Assembly (NCBI GenBank): GCA_026932145.1
Contig: JAIXKT010000008.1
Span: 1-64,000 of the forward strand
Direction of reading: 5' to 3'
DNA length: 64,000 bases
Source: Bacteroidia bacterium
GTDB taxonomy: Bacteria; Bacteroidota; Bacteroidia; J057; JAIXKT01
In this document: one piece after another, positions 39,117-54,808 of the stretch
Position numbering within the stretch: the stretch's first letter is position 1
How the letters are laid out: every line of letters starts with the position of its first letter
The notes under the pieces: model-generated
What the model was told of the DNA's origin: nothing
Databases searched by the model: none
The model's input: the letters and a program-made list of their open reading frames with translations, nothing else
Translations under genes and position numbers: made by a program

Positions 39117-41207
39117 TTATGCTTGCATCATTTTGTCGTATTCTGCGCCGATTCTTCCTTTTCGGCAAAGCGGATTTACCATAAAATCACCAGATAACTT
39201 AGCCTGAACGTGGATTGATTCGGCAATACTTGCATTGCAAGAGTTTTCAATACAAGCGGTAATCGCTTTACGTGCTTCTAACAATCCGGCATCTTGTGAG
39301 GGCGTTATATTCGCCTCTTCAAAATTCAGTTTTCCAAGGGGAGTATTGATTAGCAGACGTTTAGGTAAAGCATTTTCGCCTTCTTGTAAGATCTGCCAGA
39401 TTTTCTGTAATGAATTTTCTGCGGTATCGGCAAAGTCTGTTAGCCAGCCAATGGTATCTTTTGCTTTAAAGGATTTTCCTTCTATGAGCATTTTCAGCAG
39501 ATTTTTACGCATTTCCGGCTTAGCTTTTCGGATTGCCCAATGGCAGCCCTCCATACCGGGTATTACCGGCAAGGTAACTTCCGGCATTGCTAAGGTAGCA
39601 TCTTGAACCGCAAAAAGATAATGACAGTGCATCATAAGTTCTAACATTCCGCCCATACAACGTTTGCCATTGATAAAACCAATAGAAATCTCAAACTCAT
39701 GATGCAGTCTTCTGGCTGTTTCTGACCAAGAATATGCAATATGCGCTCCTTGCTTGGGGTCGGTAACGGCGGGGAAAAATTCCGTAATATCGGCACCAAC
39801 CATCTGTGTGGATAGATGAAAATCACCGGTTAAAACAACCCTTTTGATTTGATGCTGCTTTAACCAATCTATGGCACGGTTTAATTCCGCATCAACATCC
39901 CAACTATAACTTTCTCTGCTTAGAGTGATAACTCCCACGGAACCATCATGCTCTGCATTCACATATAGTTGTTGCCATTCGGGGGTATCCATATTCTTAA
40001 AAACATCCGGATACCACGCTGTTTCGGCAGCCTGCGGAATAAGTTGATGATATGCTTGTATGGTTTTAAAAACTTGTTCACTACCTGTTTTTCTGGCAGT
40101 AGCTATCATTCCTTTGGTAAACTGCGCACAAAGTTCTCCAATAGCATTCATGGTAGCAAAATCAGCCCGCTTCTCATGAATCATGATAGAAGTCATCTGG
40201 AATAATGCGCCCAAAATAATGTCTTTCAATATTACGGATTCGTCGTCTGCCAAATTCCAGTTAACTAAGGGACGAAAATGGTCTGGCGGATACCAATTTT
40301 GGCCGCTATCTTTACGTTCTGTAAGTTCTTGAACCGGCGTAAATAGGTTTCCATAGTGCTGGCCAAGATGATATAAGCATGACCAAGTTAAGAAATTAGA
40401 ACCTTTTGCACCAATAACATCGTGTGCTCGGAAAGGATTCGGGCCAATTAACCGCCTAATGTATTTGTCTATTTTCCAATAAGGTGTGTTGGTAATGTTG
40501 GCAAATTGAATACTTGCCTGCAACAATCCGCAAAAGAATACATCCAAAACAAATGACCAGTCATCGCTTACTTGAACGGGAATCAGGCCAAGCGACCAAA
40601 GCAATTGTGTTTGTGGTGTAACCGAAGGTTCTACAACTTCAAAGATTTTGTTAATCTCATGGGGAAAAGCAGGGTGAGCAATACTCACGCCTAACTGGGC
40701 AGATGGAAAACCGGACGTTACCGAAAAAATATGAATATCCGGAAATTCTTTTTTAAAGAGTGCATAGTGTGCCTTTTTCAGCTCCAAATTTTCCGGAATA
40801 GCTTCCAATAAAAATGTAGGATTATAGCTTTTGACAACCGGCGGGAGGGAGTTTCCGTCATAATTTAAGCGAATGACGTTTTTTAGAATATCATTCGCGG
40901 CTTCGCGCCCAAAAGAGTTAAGTAGTTGTTGGGTTTGCTGGTTAAAGCCGTCTGCAGAGCAGGGTAGGTCAAGGGCAATGATAGGGACGTTATAGGGAGC
41001 TAATCGGGAAGCAAATTGCATCACTTTACCGGCTCCAACGATGCCGTTAGCACCGGTTATTACCAATGCGCCGCGATTTTCTTTTTCTCCAAAAACTTGA
41101 TTAACAAGTCTTTCTGTATCTATTGGAAGTTTTCCGTTTTTGATAATATCGAGTACGCTGCCCAAACCGAGGGCTTCTAACGTAGAGGGTCTTAGATAGT
41201 TATTCAT
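39117..41207 (-). CDS. Bifunctional 3-hydroxyacyl-CoA dehydrogenase / enoyl-CoA hydratase, reversed order
   Basis: In this 696-residue fusion the Rossmann NAD-binding domain comes first ('VITGANGIVGAGKVMQFASRL', residues 48-68) with an HCDH-type core ('SVTSGFPSAQLGVSIAHPAFP', about 165-185), and a crotonase domain follows (about 435-690). The crotonase part keeps both Glu positions ('GGMLELMMHC' and 'MPEVTLPVIPGMEG'). In FadB/FadJ the hydratase comes first, so the order is inverted here. It probably carries out beta-oxidation of 3-hydroxypimelyl-CoA and the following steps. It lies 18 bases before had and 13 after the thiolase gene. Confidence 0.85.
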   Translation of the reverse strand: MNNYLRPSTLEALGLGSVLDIIKNGKLPIDTERLVNQVFGEKENRGALVITGANGIVGAGKVMQFASRLAPYNVPIIALDLPCSADGFNQQTQQLLNSFGREAANDILKNVIRLNYDGNSLPPVVKSYNPTFLLEAIPENLELKKAHYALFKKEFPDIHIFSVTSGFPSAQLGVSIAHPAFPHEINKIFEVVEPSVTPQTQLLWSLGLIPVQVSDDWSFVLDVFFCGLLQASIQFANITNTPYWKIDKYIRRLIGPNPFRAHDVIGAKGSNFLTWSCLYHLGQHYGNLFTPVQELTERKDSGQNWYPPDHFRPLVNWNLADDESVILKDIILGALFQMTSIMIHEKRADFATMNAIGELCAQFTKGMIATARKTGSEQVFKTIQAYHQLIPQAAETAWYPDVFKNMDTPEWQQLYVNAEHDGSVGVITLSRESYSWDVDAELNRAIDWLKQHQIKRVVLTGDFHLSTQMVGADITEFFPAVTDPKQGAHIAYSWSETARRLHHEFEISIGFINGKRCMGGMLELMMHCHYLFAVQDATLAMPEVTLPVIPGMEGCHWAIRKAKPEMRKNLLKMLIEGKSFKAKDTIGWLTDFADTAENSLQKIWQILQEGENALPKRLLINTPLGKLNFEEANITPSQDAGLLEARKAITACIENSCNASIAESIHVQAKLSGDFMVNPLCRKGRIGAEYDKMMQA

Positions 41208-42483: not shown

Positions 42484-43866
42484 TTAGCTTAATCTTTCAA
42501 ACTTAGCTGTAAAATGTCTTAAAAATGGCGGTTCTTCCGTGATTTTATAGCCTTTAACGGTATCTTTTTCCTTCAAAATCTCTGAAAAGGTTTCGATAAC
42601 ATATTCTATATGGCTTTGGGTATAAACTCTTCGGGGAATGGCTAAACGCACGAGTTCCATTGAGGCGGGAATTAATTTTCCGTTTTCATCATATTTTCCA
42701 AACATAACCGACCCGATTTCTACGCATCTGATACCGGCTTTGAGATAAAGTTCAGCTACCAATGCTTGCCCGGGATATTCATGTGGCGGAATATGCGGAT
42801 AAAGTTTTTTGGCATCTATGTAAACAGCATGGCCACCTATTGGCATCATAACTGGAATCCCTAATTTATGAAGGTGTTCTCCTAAATAGGTAGTGCTTTT
42901 AATGCGGTATTCTAAATAACTTGGGCTAAAAATCTCTTGGAGGCCGATTGCTAAGGCTTCCATATCTCTGCCGGATAATCCACCGTAGGTAGCAAAACCT
43001 TCCGTAATGATTAATAGATTTCTACAGGCATCTGCCAGTGTTTTATCTCTAAGGGATAAAAAGCCTCCCATATTCACTAAGGCATCTTTTTTGGAACTCA
43101 TTACTGATCCGTCCGTGTAAGAAAACATTTCTTGGGCAATTTCTTCATAAGATTTGTTTTCAAAGCCGGGTTCTCTGTGTTTGATGAAGTAGGCATTTTC
43201 GGCAACACGGCAGCAGTCTAATAGCAGCAATACGTTGTGTTTTTTGCAAACATGATGTGCCTCACGCATATTTTGCATACTTGCCGGCTGGCCGCCGCCG
43301 CTATTGTTCGTAACTGTAATAATCACAGCAGCGATATTTGCAGCACCTTTTTCAAGAATTAAGGATTCTAAACGGCTTATGTCTAAATTTCCCTTAAATG
43401 GATGAATGAGTGCCGAATCGTTTGCTTCCGAAATCGGAATATCAATAGCTTCAGCACCGGAAAATTCGATATTTGCTCGTGTCGTATCAAAATGCGTGTT
43501 GCTGATAAAATATTTTCCTTTTCCCCCTAAATGGCTGTATAAGATGCGTTCGGCAGCTCTCCCTTGGTGGGTAGGCAAAATAAATTCGTGCCCAGTTAAA
43601 TGACGAACGGCATTTTCCATTTTGTGCCAAGATTTAGAACCAGCATAGGATTCATCGCCCAGCATTATGCCTGCCCATTGTTCAGCACTCATAGCAGAAG
43701 TTCCGCTATCAGTTAAAAAGTCAATGATTACTTGGTCAGAATTTAGCAAAAATGGATTGTAATGAGCTTGTTGCAGATACTGAATACGTTCTGCTTCGGT
43801 ACTCATCTGGATATGCTCTATGGATTTGATTTTGAATGGCTCTATGATTACGGTGTGCTTCATCAA
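42484..43866 (-). CDS. Beta-eliminating lyase, tryptophanase-like
   Basis: This PLP enzyme of the tryptophanase/tyrosine phenol-lyase family has 460 residues. The PLP-Lys lies in 'MSSKKDALVNMGG' near residue 258. 'DFLTDSGTSAMSAEQWAGIMLGDESYAGS' and 'LPTHQGRAAERI' are family blocks. At two selectivity positions it follows tryptophanase: Asp in 'HFDTTRANI' (TPL has Thr) and Ile in 'GIRCVEIGS' (TPL has Arg). It would release indole or another leaving group, pyruvate and ammonia from an amino acid. It lies three bases after the KPR-activase fusion. The actual substrate is uncertain. Confidence 0.8.
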   Translation of the reverse strand: MMKHTVIIEPFKIKSIEHIQMSTEAERIQYLQQAHYNPFLLNSDQVIIDFLTDSGTSAMSAEQWAGIMLGDESYAGSKSWHKMENAVRHLTGHEFILPTHQGRAAERILYSHLGGKGKYFISNTHFDTTRANIEFSGAEAIDIPISEANDSALIHPFKGNLDISRLESLILEKGAANIAAVIITVTNNSGGGQPASMQNMREAHHVCKKHNVLLLLDCCRVAENAYFIKHREPGFENKSYEEIAQEMFSYTDGSVMSSKKDALVNMGGFLSLRDKTLADACRNLLIITEGFATYGGLSGRDMEALAIGLQEIFSPSYLEYRIKSTTYLGEHLHKLGIPVMMPIGGHAVYIDAKKLYPHIPPHEYPGQALVAELYLKAGIRCVEIGSVMFGKYDENGKLIPASMELVRLAIPRRVYTQSHIEYVIETFSEILKEKDTVKGYKITEEPPFLRHFTAKFERLS

Positions 43867-43869
43867 TTA

Positions 43870-45705
43870 TTATTTAGATATTGTTGTTTCGAGTTTTGGG
43901 CTGTGTTGTTTTTGAAAAACTTGTTTCGCGATAGTGGCTGCGCCGAAAGCAACTATAAATTGTGGATTTTGGATGATTTTGATGTCTTTCTTAAATTTTT
44001 CATTTAAAATATCTTTCAAAAAGGGGTGGTGAGCGATTACGCCGCCTATCATATAGGTTGGTATTCCGGGGTCAAGGCGCATTTTAGCAACTCTATTGGC
44101 AATTGAGATATAAATACCTCGGGCGATGTCTTCTAATTTCATTCCGTCAAAAATCCAGTTCATAATTTCTGTTTTGGCAAAAACGGTGCAGAAGCTGTTT
44201 AGTTCTTTGTCATATTTAGACAAGGCTGCTAAGTTGCTCATTTCTGAGATATTAATATTTGCCCGTTCGGCTATTTCGGCTAAAAAAGAGCCTGTTCCGG
44301 CGGCGCATTTATCGTTCATATAAAAGTTTTCTACGCTGTTGTCTTTATCACAGCGGATTACCTTGATGTCTTCGCCACCGATGTCTATGATATTTTTTTC
44401 ACCGGGATAATAGGCCGAGGCACCGGCAGCAGCACAATTGATTTCGGTTTTTACAATATCTGTTTCTGTAAAATGCTTACGTCCGTAGCCGGTTGCGCAA
44501 CTGTATTTTACTCTAAAAGAAGAATTTATGGCCATCATGACATTTTTGAAGGCTTGTTTATCGTTGGTCATGGTGGGTAAGAAATACTGGAATACAGCGG
44601 TTCCTTGTTCATCAACAACTGAAAACTTAGCGTATGCAGAGCCTAAATCAATCCCTAAAAAGCAATCTTGGTTTTTATAGTTTGTAATAATTGCCTGTTT
44701 GTTGATAACACCTTTTCCCAGAATTAGGCGGGAAACATCGTTTTGGTTTCCGGGTATGCGGGAAATGATATTTTTGTTGGTCATGGCCTTTACCATGTTG
44801 GTAAAGGATAAATTTAGTGAAGTTCTTACGTAGTGTTTTCGTCCGTATTCAACGATTTTCCCGTTAAAGTAATCTATTTCAGTTTGTTTTCCTTGGATCA
44901 AGTCCAGGGCGAGGGACGGGAAGTGGTCTCCGCCTTTTTTCAAGTAACGCATACACAGGCGGATGAAGTCATCGGAGAATCTGATTTTTTCTTTTTCAGC
45001 AACTTCTAAGCCTTCATTGATAATTTGTTCAACAAGTTCTGCGGTGTCTGGGTCAGCCATTGCTTCGGCCATCGTTAGGCGGCCTACTCCGCAAAGTGGG
45101 CTTAAAGCTGCATTTAAAATCGTTTTTTGCCAAACCTGTTTGGTTAAGGCAAAAGAATCAACAACTTTGGTTTCCAAGCCAGCTTGTGTCAAAAGTTCAG
45201 CAAGTTCTTGGGCTTTTGTGTGTTGAGAATCATTAACAGAACCGATATAGTTAGGTGGGTTAAAAAAGGCTACTTTTACGGTGTTGGGAGTAGCCATATT
45301 TCCGGCAAAATTGACAACCATTCGTAGGACTTTCAGTTCTCCAAAGGTTGGAATAAACATATCTTCTATATCAATTCCGTTTTGGGCGATTACTACGGTC
45401 AATTTTTCTGAGTTTAGGCTGGCAGCTTCTTGCAGTGCTTCATCTACTTGATACGACTTGGTGGCGAAGATAAGATAATCAAGATTTAGTGCTGCAAAGT
45501 CGCTTATTTTTTCATAGACAGTTACCTTAGAGGTGCTTTGAAATACACTTTCTAAAATAAGGCCGTTTTCTAAAATTTTATTGCGTTTAACTTCATTTCT
45601 GATACATAAAGCGGCTTCACAGCCGGATTCATGGAGTTTAGCCGCTAAAATAATACCGATTGGACCTGCCCCTATAATTCCGACTTTCAGGTTTTTAAGG
45701 TTCAT
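43870..45705 (-). CDS. Fusion: ketopantoate-reductase-like domain + CoA-enzyme activase ATPase
   Basis: The 611-residue protein joins two unrelated enzymes. Residues 1-300 are ApbA/PanE-type: a Rossmann 'KVGIIGAGPIGIILAAKL' and a C-terminal helical domain with the Lys region 'TKQVWQKTILNAALSPLCGVG' and 'TEIDYFNGKIVEYGRKH'. Residues about 341-611 are an ASKHA BcrAD/BadFG-type activase: 'CFLGIDLGSAYAKFSVV', 'NIIDIGGEDIKVI', cluster Cys in 'NDKCAAGTGSFLAEIAER' and 'FCTVFAKTE', and 'YMIGGVIAHHPFLKD'. Such activases use ATP to push an electron into a HgdB/BcrB-type enzyme. The gene overlaps the HgdB-like gene by four bases, so that protein is the likely partner. I know of no described fusion of this kind. 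Confidence 0.85.
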   Translation of the reverse strand: MNLKNLKVGIIGAGPIGIILAAKLHESGCEAALCIRNEVKRNKILENGLILESVFQSTSKVTVYEKISDFAALNLDYLIFATKSYQVDEALQEAASLNSEKLTVVIAQNGIDIEDMFIPTFGELKVLRMVVNFAGNMATPNTVKVAFFNPPNYIGSVNDSQHTKAQELAELLTQAGLETKVVDSFALTKQVWQKTILNAALSPLCGVGRLTMAEAMADPDTAELVEQIINEGLEVAEKEKIRFSDDFIRLCMRYLKKGGDHFPSLALDLIQGKQTEIDYFNGKIVEYGRKHYVRTSLNLSFTNMVKAMTNKNIISRIPGNQNDVSRLILGKGVINKQAIITNYKNQDCFLGIDLGSAYAKFSVVDEQGTAVFQYFLPTMTNDKQAFKNVMMAINSSFRVKYSCATGYGRKHFTETDIVKTEINCAAAGASAYYPGEKNIIDIGGEDIKVIRCDKDNSVENFYMNDKCAAGTGSFLAEIAERANINISEMSNLAALSKYDKELNSFCTVFAKTEIMNWIFDGMKLEDIARGIYISIANRVAKMRLDPGIPTYMIGGVIAHHPFLKDILNEKFKKDIKIIQNPQFIVAFGAATIAKQVFQKQHSPKLETTISK

Positions 45706-46922
45706 GAATGGATTAGCTTGTTTTCAATAAGTTGTTCTAAAAATGTTTCTATTTTGGTCATACTTTGTCCTTCGCTGAAGAAACGCAGGTCGCACAAATC
45801 TCCTTCAACGACCAATGCTGGGACGCCATTTTTTTCTTTTAGGCGTTGGGGCATTCCAAATCTTGCGTTGGAATTGTTGAAGCAGGTTTTTGAATCATGA
45901 TAGACGATACCGTCAATTTTATATTCATTGAACCAATCTGTTAGCATTTCCATTTTAGCGGCTTCACTGCGGTTGATAAAAATTTCCGTATAGGCGCGCG
46001 CTGTGGAGTTCCAAGGGTCGTTTTCGTCAAATTTATCAAAGACCCAACTGCTGCAATATGTTGAGGCAACTACTGCGGCTTGATTATCGGCAAATAAGTC
46101 GCTGAGCATCCGAAGTTTTCCCCAAATAGGCATTCCTTCCCAAAAAATACGGACTTTAGCTTTTGGCAAAAATCCTTCTCCGTTAGCAACTTTTTCAGTA
46201 AGTTCTGCTAAAAGGGTTGTGTAATAGTCTTTGGCTACTTGGGTGCCTCGTAAGACTACGATTGGCCCCATGTGAATGGTGCCATCAGAAAAGCTGATAG
46301 GTGCAATATCGGCGGTAGATGTCTTGAGTACTTTTTGCCAGAGTAATGTTGCTTCTTTGCTAAGCCGGACGGTTTCTTTAAACTGGTCTTCGTCAAACTT
46401 TCTGCCGCTGGCTTGCTCGCAGGCGGGAATCATCCGCTTGAATTGTTTTACAACAAGTTCAACTTCTTCTTGGGTAACTTGGTCAATGTGCCTTGGGGGT
46501 TGGATTCCCACGATTGGGCAGCTAAACTCTTGGGCAAAAAAGTTAAACCAGTCTTGTACTTCGCGGCATTGATTGGTATTATAGGCGATGATGTCTGGTT
46601 TTGGGATTCCTTTTAGGCCATAGTGTTTTTGCAGGGGGGTTTCTTGTTTAAGATAAGAACCTATATCTGCGGTGGTGTAGGAGCAAACGTGGCCTGAGTA
46701 GCCGCGTTTAACGGCTTCTGGGATATAATCCATTGCGGAGCGGGTAGCCCCTAATAATGCACCGTGATTTTCCGGAAAATATACTTCAAAGCCAAAGGAG
46801 CGTAGTAGCTCGGCAGGACCAACGCTGGTACACCAAGCAATTTTTTTTTCGCCGGATTCTAATGAACGAAAGTAATTGCCCATTACCTGCTTTAAAATAT
46901 CGGTACTGGCTATTTTATACAT
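45702..46922 (-). CDS. HgdB/BcrB-like 2-hydroxyacyl-CoA dehydratase/reductase subunit
   Basis: The protein is about 406 residues from ATG 46922 (MYKIAS...), which overlaps the preceding gene by eight bases; an earlier in-frame start at 46952 would overlap by 38. It belongs to the 2-hydroxyglutaryl-CoA dehydratase D-component family. Likely [4Fe-4S] ligands are Cys near 80 ('GHVCSYTTADIGSY'), near 119 ('NTNQCREVQDW') and near 338 ('SKTCFNNSNARFG'). It is separate from BcrB and BcrC and has no second HgdA-type subunit beside it, so it may act alone or as a homodimer. The fused activase that follows is its natural partner. Substrate unknown. Confidence 0.82.
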   Translation of the reverse strand: MYKIASTDILKQVMGNYFRSLESGEKKIAWCTSVGPAELLRSFGFEVYFPENHGALLGATRSAMDYIPEAVKRGYSGHVCSYTTADIGSYLKQETPLQKHYGLKGIPKPDIIAYNTNQCREVQDWFNFFAQEFSCPIVGIQPPRHIDQVTQEEVELVVKQFKRMIPACEQASGRKFDEDQFKETVRLSKEATLLWQKVLKTSTADIAPISFSDGTIHMGPIVVLRGTQVAKDYYTTLLAELTEKVANGEGFLPKAKVRIFWEGMPIWGKLRMLSDLFADNQAAVVASTYCSSWVFDKFDENDPWNSTARAYTEIFINRSEAAKMEMLTDWFNEYKIDGIVYHDSKTCFNNSNARFGMPQRLKEKNGVPALVVEGDLCDLRFFSEGQSMTKIETFLEQLIENKLIHS

Positions 46923-48654
46923 AATGAGTGTTTTTGTGGTTTTTGAGGTCAATGATATACACTTCTTCGTTGGCGGGGACGTTTTCTCCGTATAAACGAA
47001 GTAAGTGGGCGCGGTATTTTTCTACAACGTTTTTGGGAATTATTTTTAATGACGGTGTTAGTGTGTTGTTTTCGAGGGAGAGTTCGTCCATGATGATGGC
47101 GGCGGCTTTTACTTTGGCAAATTTTTGGCCGATGCTGTTGTTGGCTTTATCAAGGCAGTCCGTTAGGCAGCGACCCATTTCATTTAGGTTTCTGGGGCAA
47201 AAGCAACCTTCTTCCGGTGTAAATTCGTAATCAGGATTGTCTAAGAGTCTTTTGTTCGGAAATATTAATGCTACGGGATGTTCTTCGCCGCTGCCGGCTA
47301 CTACTGTATATTGAACGTAGTGGCATCTTAGCTCGATGGCTTTTTCTAAGTCGGTAGGAATCACTTTTTCGCCATTAGATAGTTTAAAAATTCTATCTTT
47401 TCGGGAAATTAGGCGCAAGCCGTTTTCGGTGATTTGGCCAACATCGCCGGTTCTGTACCAGCCGTCTTCGGTAAAAGTGATGCGGTTTATTTCGTCATTT
47501 TTGTAATAACCAACCATCACATTAGGGCCTTTTACCTGAATCTCATCATCATCGGCAATTCTGATAGTTACGCCCGGAATCGGTTTTCCAACCATACCGG
47601 TTTCTCGCCTGAGCTTAGGATTGGTTAAGGTGCAGCAGGGAGATGTTTCTGTAAGCCCCCAACCTTCAATTACCGGAATATTTCTCTTTTCAAATTCATT
47701 AGATAACTTTTCCGGTAAAGCAGCCGCAGCAGTAAAAATAAATTTTAAGCCGGAGTTAAAGAAAATATCTTCGGTCTCTTTATTTTCTCGGGTTAGTTCA
47801 AATAGATTTTGGTAAACCTTTGGGACACTAAAAAAGACTGTTGGGCGAACTTTTTTCCAATTTTCAAAAATTATCTTTGGGTCTCGGCCATAAGAGCTTT
47901 CTAATGAATAGGTAGCACCTTTTGCTAAGGCTGTAAATAGCTCAAAAATACCTCCAAAACTATGATGCCAAGGTAGGTAGGATAGGAATCTATCTTCTTC
48001 ATTAACGTTCCAAAGAATATCGAGAGCAGCCTGCTGAGAAAGGATATTCTGGTGGGTTAGCTGAACGCACTTAGGAGTCCCCATCGTTCCGGAGGTAAAC
48101 ATATTTAGGCAAATCGTTTCCGGTGTAATGGTTGTATCCAAATAATTTTCTTTCGCTGGTTTTAGCAACTCCCGAATATGGACCAACTGTTCAAAACGGG
48201 TGGTAACAATATCATCATCAAAGGTATAGATTTTTTTTAATGATAAATTGGTTCCGATATTGTTCAGTTGTGTATCTCCTTCTACAGTTAGCCATTGAGC
48301 GTCTGCATGAGTGATTAGTAGCTCTGCCGTATCTTTTTTAAAGTTAAAAAAGATAGGAACAGCAACGCCGCCGGATGCCATAACTGCAAGTTCTACTTGC
48401 AGCATATTCAGGTTATTTCGTGAAAAGAGCACCATTTTGTCCCCAACCTGAAATCCTGCTTGGCGGAGGTTATAGGCAATGTTGATGATGTTCTGATAAA
48501 AGTCCTTCCAAGTTATTCCAATATAATTTTCGGAGGCATCTTGTTGTTGAAAGACAATCTTTTGCGCAAATTTTTCTGCATTTTGCTTTAGTAATATTGC
48601 GATATTTGGAATAACCTGCCCGAGCGTATATTCACTGGCCAACTGTTGCTTCAT
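46915..48654 (-). CDS. AMP-forming acyl-CoA synthetase (long-chain type)
   Basis: This ANL-family ligase has about 579 residues. It has P-loop 'FTSGTMGTPKCVQLTH', 'LPWHHSFGGIFE', the A5 block 'GWGLTETSPCCT', and the A7-A8 motifs 'GWYRTGDVG' and 'RISRKDR-like' ('LISRKDRIFKLSNGEKV'). ATG at 48654 avoids overlap with bcrD; 48681 is an alternative. Overall it resembles long-chain FACS enzymes more than known benzoate-CoA ligases. Its place in the operon suggests it makes the CoA thioester that feeds the pathway (benzoate, a phenylalkanoate, or the 2-hydroxyacid made by the neighbouring fusion). Confidence 0.85.
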   Translation of the reverse strand: MKQQLASEYTLGQVIPNIAILLKQNAEKFAQKIVFQQQDASENYIGITWKDFYQNIINIAYNLRQAGFQVGDKMVLFSRNNLNMLQVELAVMASGGVAVPIFFNFKKDTAELLITHADAQWLTVEGDTQLNNIGTNLSLKKIYTFDDDIVTTRFEQLVHIRELLKPAKENYLDTTITPETICLNMFTSGTMGTPKCVQLTHQNILSQQAALDILWNVNEEDRFLSYLPWHHSFGGIFELFTALAKGATYSLESSYGRDPKIIFENWKKVRPTVFFSVPKVYQNLFELTRENKETEDIFFNSGLKFIFTAAAALPEKLSNEFEKRNIPVIEGWGLTETSPCCTLTNPKLRRETGMVGKPIPGVTIRIADDDEIQVKGPNVMVGYYKNDEINRITFTEDGWYRTGDVGQITENGLRLISRKDRIFKLSNGEKVIPTDLEKAIELRCHYVQYTVVAGSGEEHPVALIFPNKRLLDNPDYEFTPEEGCFCPRNLNEMGRCLTDCLDKANNSIGQKFAKVKAAAIIMDELSLENNTLTPSLKIIPKNVVEKYRAHLLRLYGENVPANEEVYIIDLKNHKNTHYV

Positions 48655-52326: not shown

Positions 52327-53511
52327 TTAAGAAATATGTACAGATTCGTCTTCCCACAATTTGATAGAATCAGAGAAGGCACCTACTTGTTCTTTAATTA
52401 CTTTATATTGGTTGATGTTTTCACTAAATTGGAATGCTATGTAGCGGATTCCCATTTTGTCAAAAGCCTTTTGGAAGATAGGAGCATCTAAGAGGCTGGG
52501 GTCGCAAAAACTGGCTGAGGCAAAAAGAACCCCGTCTGCACCACGTTTTTTGGCAATTTCTGCTAAACGGTTCTCTTTGGGGTTACTTACATCATAAATA
52601 GAAGAAGAATATTGGCTTTGGTAAATGTAAGCATGAGCAATAGCTTCTAAGGGGCTGTTTGTTGTAGCGCTAATGTCTCCAAGAATCATTCTGGAGCCAA
52701 GCATATAATCATCATCAACTACATAGCATCCGGCTTCTTCGATAGATTTTATCAGACCGATTGACGGTTGCTCGCAGAAAGCTCCAGAAATAACTACCTT
52801 TACTTTGTCCTGTGGTTCTCCAATATTTTGTTCAATGTGGTTGCAGACTTGCTCTAAAATCTGATTGTGTTCTTCTACCGGAATGACTGTTCCGGCTCTG
52901 AGTACATAATAGACTTCTTCGATAGTCATTCGCCAAGGGTAATGCTGGCGGATTTCATAAATTCGCTCTATTAGCTGGCGATTTTTATTGTATAAAGCGA
53001 TGGAGTGATTTAAATCTGCTGTGGTAACGGTCTTATTATTAATTTCTTGGACGTAATGCATGACGTGCTGCATTTCTTGTTGGTAAAATACACCGCCTAC
53101 TTCCGGTAAAAAGTTTTGCGGAAAATCCATATATTTGATGAACTTCCCGATGTTATTGAGTTTAAAAATTCCGGATAGATTTCGGATTACGTCACAGATA
53201 GAGGGAAAAATATATCCGTCAAAATGTGCAGTTTGGCCGTCCAAGACTATATCAAGAGTGCTTCTGGGGATGTGGCAAATGTATGATTGGTAGTAGGCAT
53301 CTCCTCTGATAACCTGTTTTTTATCTCCGCCGCCAAAGATGGCTACCGGCAAAGCTCCGGCAGCGTGCAGCACTTCGCGGGGAAAATATACCGGCATATA
53401 CCCCACAACAACCCTACCGGGTGCTTCCTCTTTCCAACGCTTTGCGCGTGTAAAATTCAAATCAAACGCTAACTCTTTGCATTCCTTAATTAGTTGTTTA
53501 AAATCCAGCAT
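52327..53511 (-). CDS. bcrC: Benzoyl-CoA reductase, gamma subunit
   Basis: This 394-residue catalytic subunit starts the operon. The N-terminal block 'GYMPVYFPREVLHAAGALPVAIFGGGD' (residues 37-63) and the Cys sites 'QSYICHIPRSTLD', 'FPSICDVIRNLSG' and 'ASFCDPSLLDAP' are those of BcrC/BadD. 'VVISGAFCEQPSIGLIKSIEEAGCYVVDDDYMLGSRM' is a strong family signature. The gene order bcrC-bcrB-bcrA-bcrD is the Thauera one. ATG at 53511 lies about 130 bases after the predicted promoter, giving a long leader with a palindrome. Confidence 0.95.
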   Translation of the reverse strand: MLDFKQLIKECKELAFDLNFTRAKRWKEEAPGRVVVGYMPVYFPREVLHAAGALPVAIFGGGDKKQVIRGDAYYQSYICHIPRSTLDIVLDGQTAHFDGYIFPSICDVIRNLSGIFKLNNIGKFIKYMDFPQNFLPEVGGVFYQQEMQHVMHYVQEINNKTVTTADLNHSIALYNKNRQLIERIYEIRQHYPWRMTIEEVYYVLRAGTVIPVEEHNQILEQVCNHIEQNIGEPQDKVKVVISGAFCEQPSIGLIKSIEEAGCYVVDDDYMLGSRMILGDISATTNSPLEAIAHAYIYQSQYSSSIYDVSNPKENRLAEIAKKRGADGVLFASASFCDPSLLDAPIFQKAFDKMGIRYIAFQFSENINQYKVIKEQVGAFSDSIKLWEDESVHIS

Positions 53512-53581
53512 ATAACTTTCTCGTGATTAAAATCATTGTTTTTAGACCCAAATAGATATTTGCAGTCAGTTATAAAATAAT

Positions 53582-53619
53582 TTATCAACAATTATCCGTT
53601 GGATAAATTTACTTGATAA
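53582..53619. promoter_or_regulatory. Nested palindrome in the bcr operon leader
   Basis: An inner perfect dyad (TTATCC-GTT-GGATAA, 53592-53606) lies within an outer pair (TTATCAA at 53582-53588 and TTGATAA at 53613-53619). It sits between the minus-strand promoter and bcrC, 30-70 bases downstream of the -7 element. It could be an operator for a repressor or fold as an RNA hairpin. There is no T run, so it is not a simple terminator. Confidence 0.5.
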
Positions 53620-53648
53620 CTTAAAACCGTTAAATCCATTTTACTATG

Positions 53649-53680
53649 CAAATCTACACAAAATAATAATCACTTACAAA
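53649..53680 (-). promoter_or_regulatory. Bacteroidota-type promoter of the bcr operon
   Basis: On the minus strand TTTG (53677-53680), 20 bases and TAGATTTG (53649-53656) fit the -33/-7 consensus TTTG-N19/20-TAnnTTTG. Transcription would start near 53642, leaving a leader of about 130 bases before bcrC. Confidence 0.65.
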
Positions 53681-53747
53681 CAAGATAAAATGATTCATAG
53701 CCAAATCCTTTGACTTTAGCTATCAAAAGACTTAGATGGATGATATA

Positions 53748-53762
53748 TTAGGGCTACCCTAA
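53748..53762. promoter_or_regulatory. Short perfect dyad upstream of the bcr promoter
   Basis: TTAGGG-CTA-CCCTAA is an exact 6-3-6 inverted repeat. It has the same 6-3-6 geometry as the dyad at 53592-53606 but a different sequence. It lies about 70 bases upstream of the bcr -33 element and 132 before the plus-strand FkbM gene, so it could serve either. The rest of the 382-base gap (53512-53893) holds no gene that I can see; a near-consensus CAACTTTG lies shortly before 53894. Confidence 0.4.
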
Positions 53763-53893
53763 AAGATAAAAAAGTAAATATCTACTTAATTATTAAGCTG
53801 GTGTTAATTTCATAACCATTTAAGTGGCTATTCCTGCTATAAGCAAAAAAATATACAACTTTGCAGTTGAACTTTTAGTTCATATAATGTCTA

Positions 53894-54808
53894 ATGAAAA
53901 AAAACTTAGAAAAAAATCTTGAACAAGTAGAAGCATTATCAAATACTTCCAAATTGGGCAGGTTACTGCACAACCCAATTAGATATATTTATGCGATAGT
54001 ATTAAAAAACGTCTTGTATCCGATATTTCAAAAAGAAATATCGGTAAGCTGTGAACTATTTACAGGAAAAAAAATCAACGTAGTTTTGCCTGCTTCAACC
54101 GATATTTACTTAACTGGAGGCAAGTCTCACCCGTCTGAAATTAGGTTAGCTAAGTTTTTAATTCATAATTTACAAAACAACGACTCTTTTTGGGATATAG
54201 GAGCGCATTATGGCTATTTCTCAATTTTGGCATCTGAATTGGTCGGGCCGGGCGGAAAGGTTGTATCCATTGAAGCATCTACCTCAACTTTTGATATTCT
54301 GAAAAAAAATACAGAACAGTATGCTAATATATCCATACGGCACAATGCAATGTCTGATAACAATCAAAAGGTCTCATTTTTTGAATTACCTAATTTGTAT
54401 TCAGAATATAATACAACTGACTTAGCTCAATTTGAAAACGAAAAATGGTTTTCAAAAATCAAAACTAAAAAGGTAGTGGTTGATGCCCTTACATTAGACA
54501 ACTTACTAACCAAATATGGGGAAGTTCCTAATATCATCAAGATTGACGTAGAAGGCGGAGAATTCGCTGTGATAAACGGCGGGATGAATCTCCTAAAAAA
54601 AGAAGGCTCAAAACCCGTTATTGTGATGGAATACTTAGAAGCCAAAAGAAACAATCAGCCGCATAAACAAGCTACTGATACCTTAACGCAGTTAGGCTTT
54701 AAGCCAAACATCATTCAAAATGACGGCAGTTTGATATTCATCAGTGATATTGAAGCCCATTTATCAAAAAACAATTTAGAATCAGATAATATTGTTTTTA
54801 AGAAATAG
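53894..54808 (+). CDS. FkbM family SAM-dependent methyltransferase
   Basis: The 304-residue Methyltransf_21/FkbM protein has SAM motif I 'FWDIGAHYGYFSILASELV' near residues 98-116, the acidic 'VVSIEAS' at 122-128, and 'IIKIDVEGGEFAVINGG' near 214-230, which is the family signature. 'VIVMEYLEAKRN' lies near the end. Members O-methylate sugars or lipid-linked glycans. The gene reads away from the bcr operon and is not functionally tied to it. Upstream CAACTTTG, one base off the -7 consensus, precedes it. Confidence 0.9.
   Translation: MKKNLEKNLEQVEALSNTSKLGRLLHNPIRYIYAIVLKNVLYPIFQKEISVSCELFTGKKINVVLPASTDIYLTGGKSHPSEIRLAKFLIHNLQNNDSFWDIGAHYGYFSILASELVGPGGKVVSIEASTSTFDILKKNTEQYANISIRHNAMSDNNQKVSFFELPNLYSEYNTTDLAQFENEKWFSKIKTKKVVVDALTLDNLLTKYGEVPNIIKIDVEGGEFAVINGGMNLLKKEGSKPVIVMEYLEAKRNNQPHKQATDTLTQLGFKPNIIQNDGSLIFISDIEAHLSKNNLESDNIVFKK

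Follow-up and report, generated by a model that had tools for sequence, protein, structure and literature searches.

The bcr Locus and Its Promoter

The window (the whole 64-kb stretch of DNA that was analysed, lying on contig C8 of a 3.48-Mb genome) carries on its minus strand a run of genes in the order bcrC-bcrB-bcrA-bcrD-ligase, presumed to form an operon. In the profile search bcrC and bcrB exceeded the curated cut-offs, and the bcrA-like and bcrD-like genes were identified by their best matches, yet below the equivalog cut-offs; an AMP-forming ligase gene follows. The intergenic region, 382 bp in length, ends at a divergent gene for an FkbM-type methyltransferase (Table 1). Farther along the minus strand, the interval between the ligase and the thiolase (42484-46952) contains a beta-eliminating lyase, a single protein fusing a ketopantoate-reductase-like part with a BcrAD/BadFG ATPase domain, and an additional 2-hydroxyglutaryl-CoA dehydratase D-type subunit. 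These genes could possibly couple aromatic amino acid breakdown to the benzoyl-CoA pathway.

Upstream of bcrC an exact -33/-7 pair was found, which bears out the good TTTG-N20 promoter claimed for bcr in the preliminary description; matches of the type TTTG-N18-22-TAGATTTG number six in the entire window, both strands considered. The TTTG located 20 bases 5' of TAGATTTG fits the -33 element. According to an excerpt of the transcription start map of Flavobacterium psychrophilum, the -7 box of Bacteroidota sigma-A promoters is TAnnTTTG and is placed at -12 to -5 (PMC9723704). The TAGATTTG of the window agrees with this consensus, with nothing unusual, and TTTG and TAnnTTTG are both present at the proper spacing. 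Because the -7 box is taken at -12 to -5, as in that excerpt, transcription of bcrC is predicted to start at about 53644. With respect to this position, the leader palindrome would lie at about +39 to +53 and the TTAGGG palindrome at about -104 to -118, the latter separated by 67 bp from the -33 TTTG, on its upstream side.

Table 1. Positions of the features of the bcrC upstream region and of the R1 leader in related loci.
Feature	Position	Strand	Remark
bcrC	52327..53511	minus	TIGR02263, 432.4 bits (cut-off 421.15)
Best Crp/Fnr-like box match, ATGATTTTAATCAC	53521..53534	minus	Single mismatch; lies 9 nt ahead of the bcrC start codon rather than at an activator position
54-bp imperfect inverted repeat	53568..53621	minus	Holds both dyads; might form a hairpin in the bcr 5'-UTR
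Outer dyad	TTATCAA 53582-53588 / TTGATAA 53613-53619		Spans 53582-53619
6-3-6 palindrome TTATCC-GTT-GGATAA (TTATCCGTTGGATAA)	53592-53606		Within the predicted leader
Putative promoter TTTG-N20-TAGATTTG	53649..53680	minus	Bacteroidota-type, for bcrC
6-3-6 palindrome TTAGGG-CTA-CCCTAA (TTAGGGCTACCCTAA)	53748-53762		Upstream side of the promoter
Third 6-3-6 palindrome TGAACT-TTT-AGTTCA (TGAACTTTTAGTTCA)	53868-53882		Just ahead of the FkbM-type methyltransferase gene at 53894 (divergent)
R1 leader	L015:2423-2511, L021:7861-7952, L077:7869-7957, L017:3554-3653, L025:7870-7956		Further loci: L016, L022, L026, L027, L037, L044

Palindromes in the Intergenic Region

Both 6-3-6 palindromes and the outer dyad sit where the preliminary description had placed them. 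Its nested dyad holds as far as the nesting is concerned, but the two elements are not concentric, the centre of the outer dyad (53600.5) being offset by 1.5 bp from that of the inner palindrome (53599). Four TTATC/GATAA units fall within the 38 bp of the outer dyad. Two features are additional to that description, namely a third 6-3-6 palindrome and a 54-bp imperfect inverted repeat enclosing the leader dyad. Preceding the FkbM gene is a sigma-70-like TTTGCA/TATAAT pair with a 17-base spacer, of which the third palindrome takes up 15 bases; pairs of this type occur four times in the region against 3.2 expected, that is, at chance level.

Other explanations of the repeats were tried and rejected. 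No intrinsic terminator was found. An invertible promoter would have the two palindromes as inverted copies of one another, which they are not; as for a repeated element, the next best match to the 73-bp region (E 0.22) is not a convincing second copy. The promoter does lie between the arms (53550-53561 and 53776-53787) of a 12-nt inverted repeat that has one mismatch; one of equal quality was present in 63 of 200 shuffles.

Perfect 6-3-6 palindromes number 28 in the window and three in the intergenic region, for which 3000 dinucleotide shuffles gave a mean of 0.29, with at least two in 3.4% and at least three in 0.5% of them. When any one spacer from 0 to 10 was admitted in the same shuffles, at least two palindromes were obtained in 28% and at least three in 3.1-3.6% (two runs). 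The first of these figures is in accordance with chance palindromes in AT-rich intergenic DNA having no function, a reading we consider unlikely, and so is the finding that G/C-containing palindromes (at least two G/C per arm), pooled over spacers 0-10, reach a total of at least three in 3.3% of shuffles. On the other hand, all three observed palindromes have at least two G/C per arm and the same spacer, and at spacer 3 not one of the 3000 shuffles had even two of them; with any one spacer from 0 to 10, at least two were found in 0.8% and at least three in 0.03% of 3000 shuffles, and with at least one G/C per arm at least three were found in 0.2%. In addition, the window has 13 other stretches of at least 100 bp without a 120-aa ORF, and the count for all of them was only one G/C-containing 6-3-6 palindrome. 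Since the G/C restriction was picked after the data were seen, the excess of the cluster over the shuffles is graded as suggestive.

Three G/C-containing palindromes of the same geometry within 382 bp hint that some of them may be binding sites. In that case one or more would serve as operators for regulators specific to this lineage, such as a benzoyl-CoA-released repressor bound at +39 to +53. As the preliminary description proposed, these would be dimeric, but the two sides need not be bound by one and the same protein; this we regard as possible, though somewhat unlikely. The same hint counts against the reading we tentatively prefer, with slightly less than even confidence, in which the palindromes are independent features rather than copies of one operator and the leader repeat acts as an RNA hairpin.

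Search for a Shared Operator and for Regulators

The preliminary description had taken the equal geometry on both sides of the promoter as a sign of one dimeric regulator. The half-sites TTATCC, TTAGGG and TGAACT have 3, 3 and 2 of six letters in common pairwise, and TTATCC and TTAGGG, with 3/6 letters shared, are not the one half-site expected of such a regulator. Throughout the genome TTATCC-N3-GGATAA has two copies, the second inside a coding sequence (a long open frame with PKD-like repeats, labelled by eye), and TTAGGG-N3-CCCTAA has a single exact copy; neither motif was found at any other promoter when the whole genome was searched. Near-matches in the window, with at most three mismatches, were not above chance (39 against 41 expected for the TTATCC motif, 19 against 30 for the TTAGGG motif). 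A single regulator shared by both palindromes is therefore not supported, and a shared operator was rejected on the half-sites and the genome counts.

Comparison with relatives was based on 66 bcr loci, reduced to 37 upstream regions by removing 28 proteobacterial loci and L048, which has no upstream DNA; loci L002-L013 were left out of the upstream count. Among the 37, L022 bears the label Chlorobiota and L035 simply 'bacterium', and L029, a short duplicate-like row of L028, was counted and then omitted from the tree. Neither motif is intact in any of the 37 regions (at most 400 bp; 113 bp for L029). The closest approach among the relatives is TTATTCAGCGGATAA in L050, which has one mismatch; of 740 shuffled regions, 2 come as close to that motif. 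The preliminary description had expected close relatives carrying the same operon to retain the dyads; this failed at the level of the class, which is the level of the comparison, as none of the 59 genomes listed besides that of the window (G000) belongs to its family. It is because the half-sites are unrelated, neither motif was found at another promoter and neither is intact in the upstream regions of 37 relatives that we read the palindromes as independent features. The same three results weigh against operators of lineage-specific regulators, and the genome counts of just 2 and 1, together with the lack of intact copies in relatives, would also be in keeping with chance.

Among the regulators of anaerobic aromatic operons, MbdR belongs to the TetR, BadR to the MarR and AadR to the Crp/Fnr family, all three being dimeric and having palindromic operators, and bzdR encodes a helix-turn-helix fused to a shikimate-kinase-like domain. 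A search for the Crp/Fnr, TetR, MarR and shikimate-kinase (BzdR-like) families was extended to the whole genome. It returned two Crp/Fnr, three TetR, five MarR (three over the cut-off) and one shikimate-kinase match. No member of the four families (PF13545, PF00440, PF12802 and PF01202) matched on contig C8, in line with the earlier statement that no regulator of the BzdR, BadR or AadR type is encoded in the window; in this the window differs from the MbdR, BadR and AadR systems. The sole PF01202 match is on contig C1, in an open frame of 212 aa. The lack of matches to these four families on the contig speaks against operators of dimeric regulators, whereas the three TetR and three MarR matches over the cut-off, located elsewhere in the genome, speak for them.

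The Leader Inverted Repeat

The 54-bp repeat is the top-scoring hairpin of the intergenic region, its score being reached by 4 of 150 shuffles; that it outscores the remaining 146 also argues against palindromes arisen by chance. Four TTATC/GATAA units in 40 bp were obtained in none of 2000 shuffles, this being a post hoc test. The predicted leader of 134 nt folds with a z of -2.0 (7 of 200 shuffles were as good), and its 53-nt and 39-nt pieces with z of -1.5 and -1.6. The hairpin part of our preferred reading is founded on an inverted repeat longer than described before, on the 4 of 150 shuffles that reach its score and on the leader z of -2.0. Two aspects of the folding models count against it. 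First, the predicted hairpin energies are only modestly below those of shuffles. Second, the modelled folds disagree on the shape of the hairpin, as the 39-nt and 53-nt pieces fold into the nested dyad while the minimum-energy structure of the complete leader has the longer arms paired and TTATCC and GGATAA not paired with each other. The repeat is thus a possible 5'-UTR hairpin, or else a lineage-specific operator. If functional, the downstream dyad within it would most likely act as a hairpin close to the start of the bcr mRNA, whose stability or translation it might affect. Rfam gave three matches on the window region, all far under the gathering scores.

A Conserved Leader RNA in Related bcr Loci

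A leader of the form ATGACnCAATTrTAACTATACC-N-TTTTTTGCTTGAYAGCAAGGTATAGT-N-TCAAGTAAAAA, here modelled as R1, is conserved in 11 of the 37 related loci. Its long-range pairing CTTTTTTGCTTGA/TCAAGTAAAAAG, combined with CTATACC/GGTATAG, would generate a pseudoknot. In a covariation alignment of 12 rows (the 11 loci and the divergent L018), 88.3% of cells pair compared with 42-54% in slid versions, and the covariation score is 0.198 compared with 0.130 in shuffles, none of 500 reaching the observed value. Five pairs change on both sides, a number reached by 8 of 500 shuffles; four belong to the long-range stem and one to CTATACC/GGTATAG, where conservation is otherwise one of sequence. Further pair types were not above shuffles (261/500), nor was the covariation of an alternative P1+P2 hairpin, and, folded as single sequences, three R1 loci surpassed shuffles only slightly, with z between -0.5 and -1.5. 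Rfam, run on eight loci (seven model rows and L018), gave no gathering-score match at the leader; its three matches at that level, elsewhere in those loci, were two tRNAs and an S15 leader. R1 is put forward as a candidate for a new RNA with a cis-regulatory role in benzoyl-CoA reductase operons. In the riboswitch literature found, the article with most mentions of benzoyl-CoA concerns, according to an excerpt, a B12 riboswitch (PMC13119186).

The window's leader did not come out as an R1 member: with filters on, the window gave no match at E<=10, and the best unfiltered hit in 53500-53900 had 4 bits (E 0.63). The genome of the window gave no match at E<=1 either, a setting at which an empty answer is uninformative. 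When 55 of the 89 loci were searched, the 11 strong matches (at least 71 bits) were the loci from which the model had been built; weak ones were seen in L050 (28 bits), L018 (23) and L024 (21), as well as on the minus strand (26 bits) of L004/L025, L004 being apparently the same contig as L025 by its equal length and score. In a search across genomes 5 of 395 matched, four of them strongly and with the bit scores of model rows; because these four are probably the model genomes, the search added no independent member. The remaining match, L094 with 37 bits, looks like a chance AT-rich one by ATPase-like and transposase-like frames (by eye).

A Crp/Fnr-Like Box in Relatives, Missing in the Window

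A perfect ATGA-N6-TCAT box is present in 31 of the 37 relatives' upstream regions, compared with 1.6% of base-by-base shuffles. In 28 it is followed by a TA-starting element 21-22 bp on (0.5% of such shuffles), the distance being 22 bp in 26 loci and 21 bp in two; boxes were located, for example, at -129 (L038), -108 (L023) and -92 (L031) upstream of bcrC. If the -7 box is placed as in the excerpt cited above (PMC9723704), the 22-bp distance brings the box centre to -41.5. Some of the TA-starting elements agree poorly with TAnnTTTG (L019, TAACCTAG; L020, TATCATAG), and the best -33 match in the 28 loci is off by one to three of its four letters, whereas the TTTG of the window is exact. L028, L029 and L040 have a perfect box and lack the TA element at 21-22 bp; six loci have no perfect box (L014, L022, L033, L037, L041 and L049), L037 having one with a single mismatch (matrix score 9.7). 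In L033, L040 and L041, labelled Saprospiraceae/Lewinellaceae, an AAGACA...TGTCTT-like palindrome or a near form was noticed by eye instead.

No perfect ATGA-N6-TCAT, and hence no Class II Crp/Fnr-like arrangement, was found upstream of bcrC in the window, whose only perfect copy is at 40183-40196. The best match of the region scores 8.9 on the plus and 2.4 on the minus strand, compared with 12.6-20.7 for the 28 training sites. Anaerobic control of the Crp/Fnr type could still be exerted through this degenerate box or an unrecognised site, given that it is the region's best matrix match, that two Crp/Fnr genes exist in the genome, on C48 and C32, and that the strict box-plus-promoter pattern occurs at two other places in it. 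We hold this to be highly unlikely: the box would lie at about +111 to +124, by the start codon and not upstream of the promoter, and when regions of about 400 bp were shuffled, 30% held a box with at most one mismatch. The two strict sites (ATGA-N6-TCAT-N21..23-TAnnTTnG), neither of which is at bcr, are L083 (C13:2955-2998), after a nitric-oxide-reductase-like frame, and L084 (C19:19703-19746), adjoining glutamyl-tRNA-reductase-like and histidine-kinase-like frames (all by eye).

In a BcrC tree of 36 of the 37 relatives, the window and five outgroup rows, the window groups with L014, L019 and L020 (99/99), with L018 adjacent (95/91). L014 is without the box. As the neighbours L018, L019 and L020 carry it, its absence is most simply a loss, and one gene tree, in which the fork joining L014 with L019/L020 is weak (96/55), suggests that this took place in the lineage of the window. 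The box in 28 of 37 relatives, the exact -33/-7 pair with no good box here and the tree placement together ground this part of our preferred reading. Under it, the bcr operon would be transcribed from a sigma-A promoter of consensus type whose -33 element is good, while most related bcr promoters have no full -33 match and a Crp/Fnr-like box near -41.5 that has apparently been lost here. A consensus promoter devoid of an activator box would suit repression as well, in favour of an operator. More speculatively, and in our opinion quite unlikely, ancestral Crp/Fnr activation was replaced by the strong consensus promoter plus a new negative control in the leader, by a hairpin or operator in 53568-53621, possibly with a second factor on the upstream palindrome. 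Comparison of the upstream regions suggests that a Crp/Fnr-like site near -41.5 is a common rule for bcr genes of Bacteroidota, a rule that the window breaks. By themselves the palindromes are an ordinary find; they are testable candidates for whatever replaced control from the -41.5 box.

Comparison with Known Systems

No report on bcr control in Bacteroidota was found, as judged by titles and the opening of abstracts, and the search for a Bacteroidetes Fnr box likewise found no literature. For Azoarcus it has been worked out how benzoyl-CoA reductase genes are controlled; there, according to an excerpt, the PN promoter of the bzd operon is under the repressor BzdR and the activator AcpR, the latter of FNR/CRP type with its site at -41.5 (PMC6678401). 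The BzdR operators described there share TGCA units conserved among strains (PMC6678401); in contrast, TTATCC, TTAGGG and TGAACT have no repeated unit of the TGCA type in common, and the palindromes of the window are not intact in relatives and are not accompanied by a -41.5 box. Two likenesses to the PN promoter, as far as it is covered in the excerpt (PMC6678401), stand beside these differences: palindromic sites are located on either side of a benzoyl-CoA reductase promoter in the window too, and the -41.5 position of the activator site is the very one occupied by the box in 28 of the 37 related loci.
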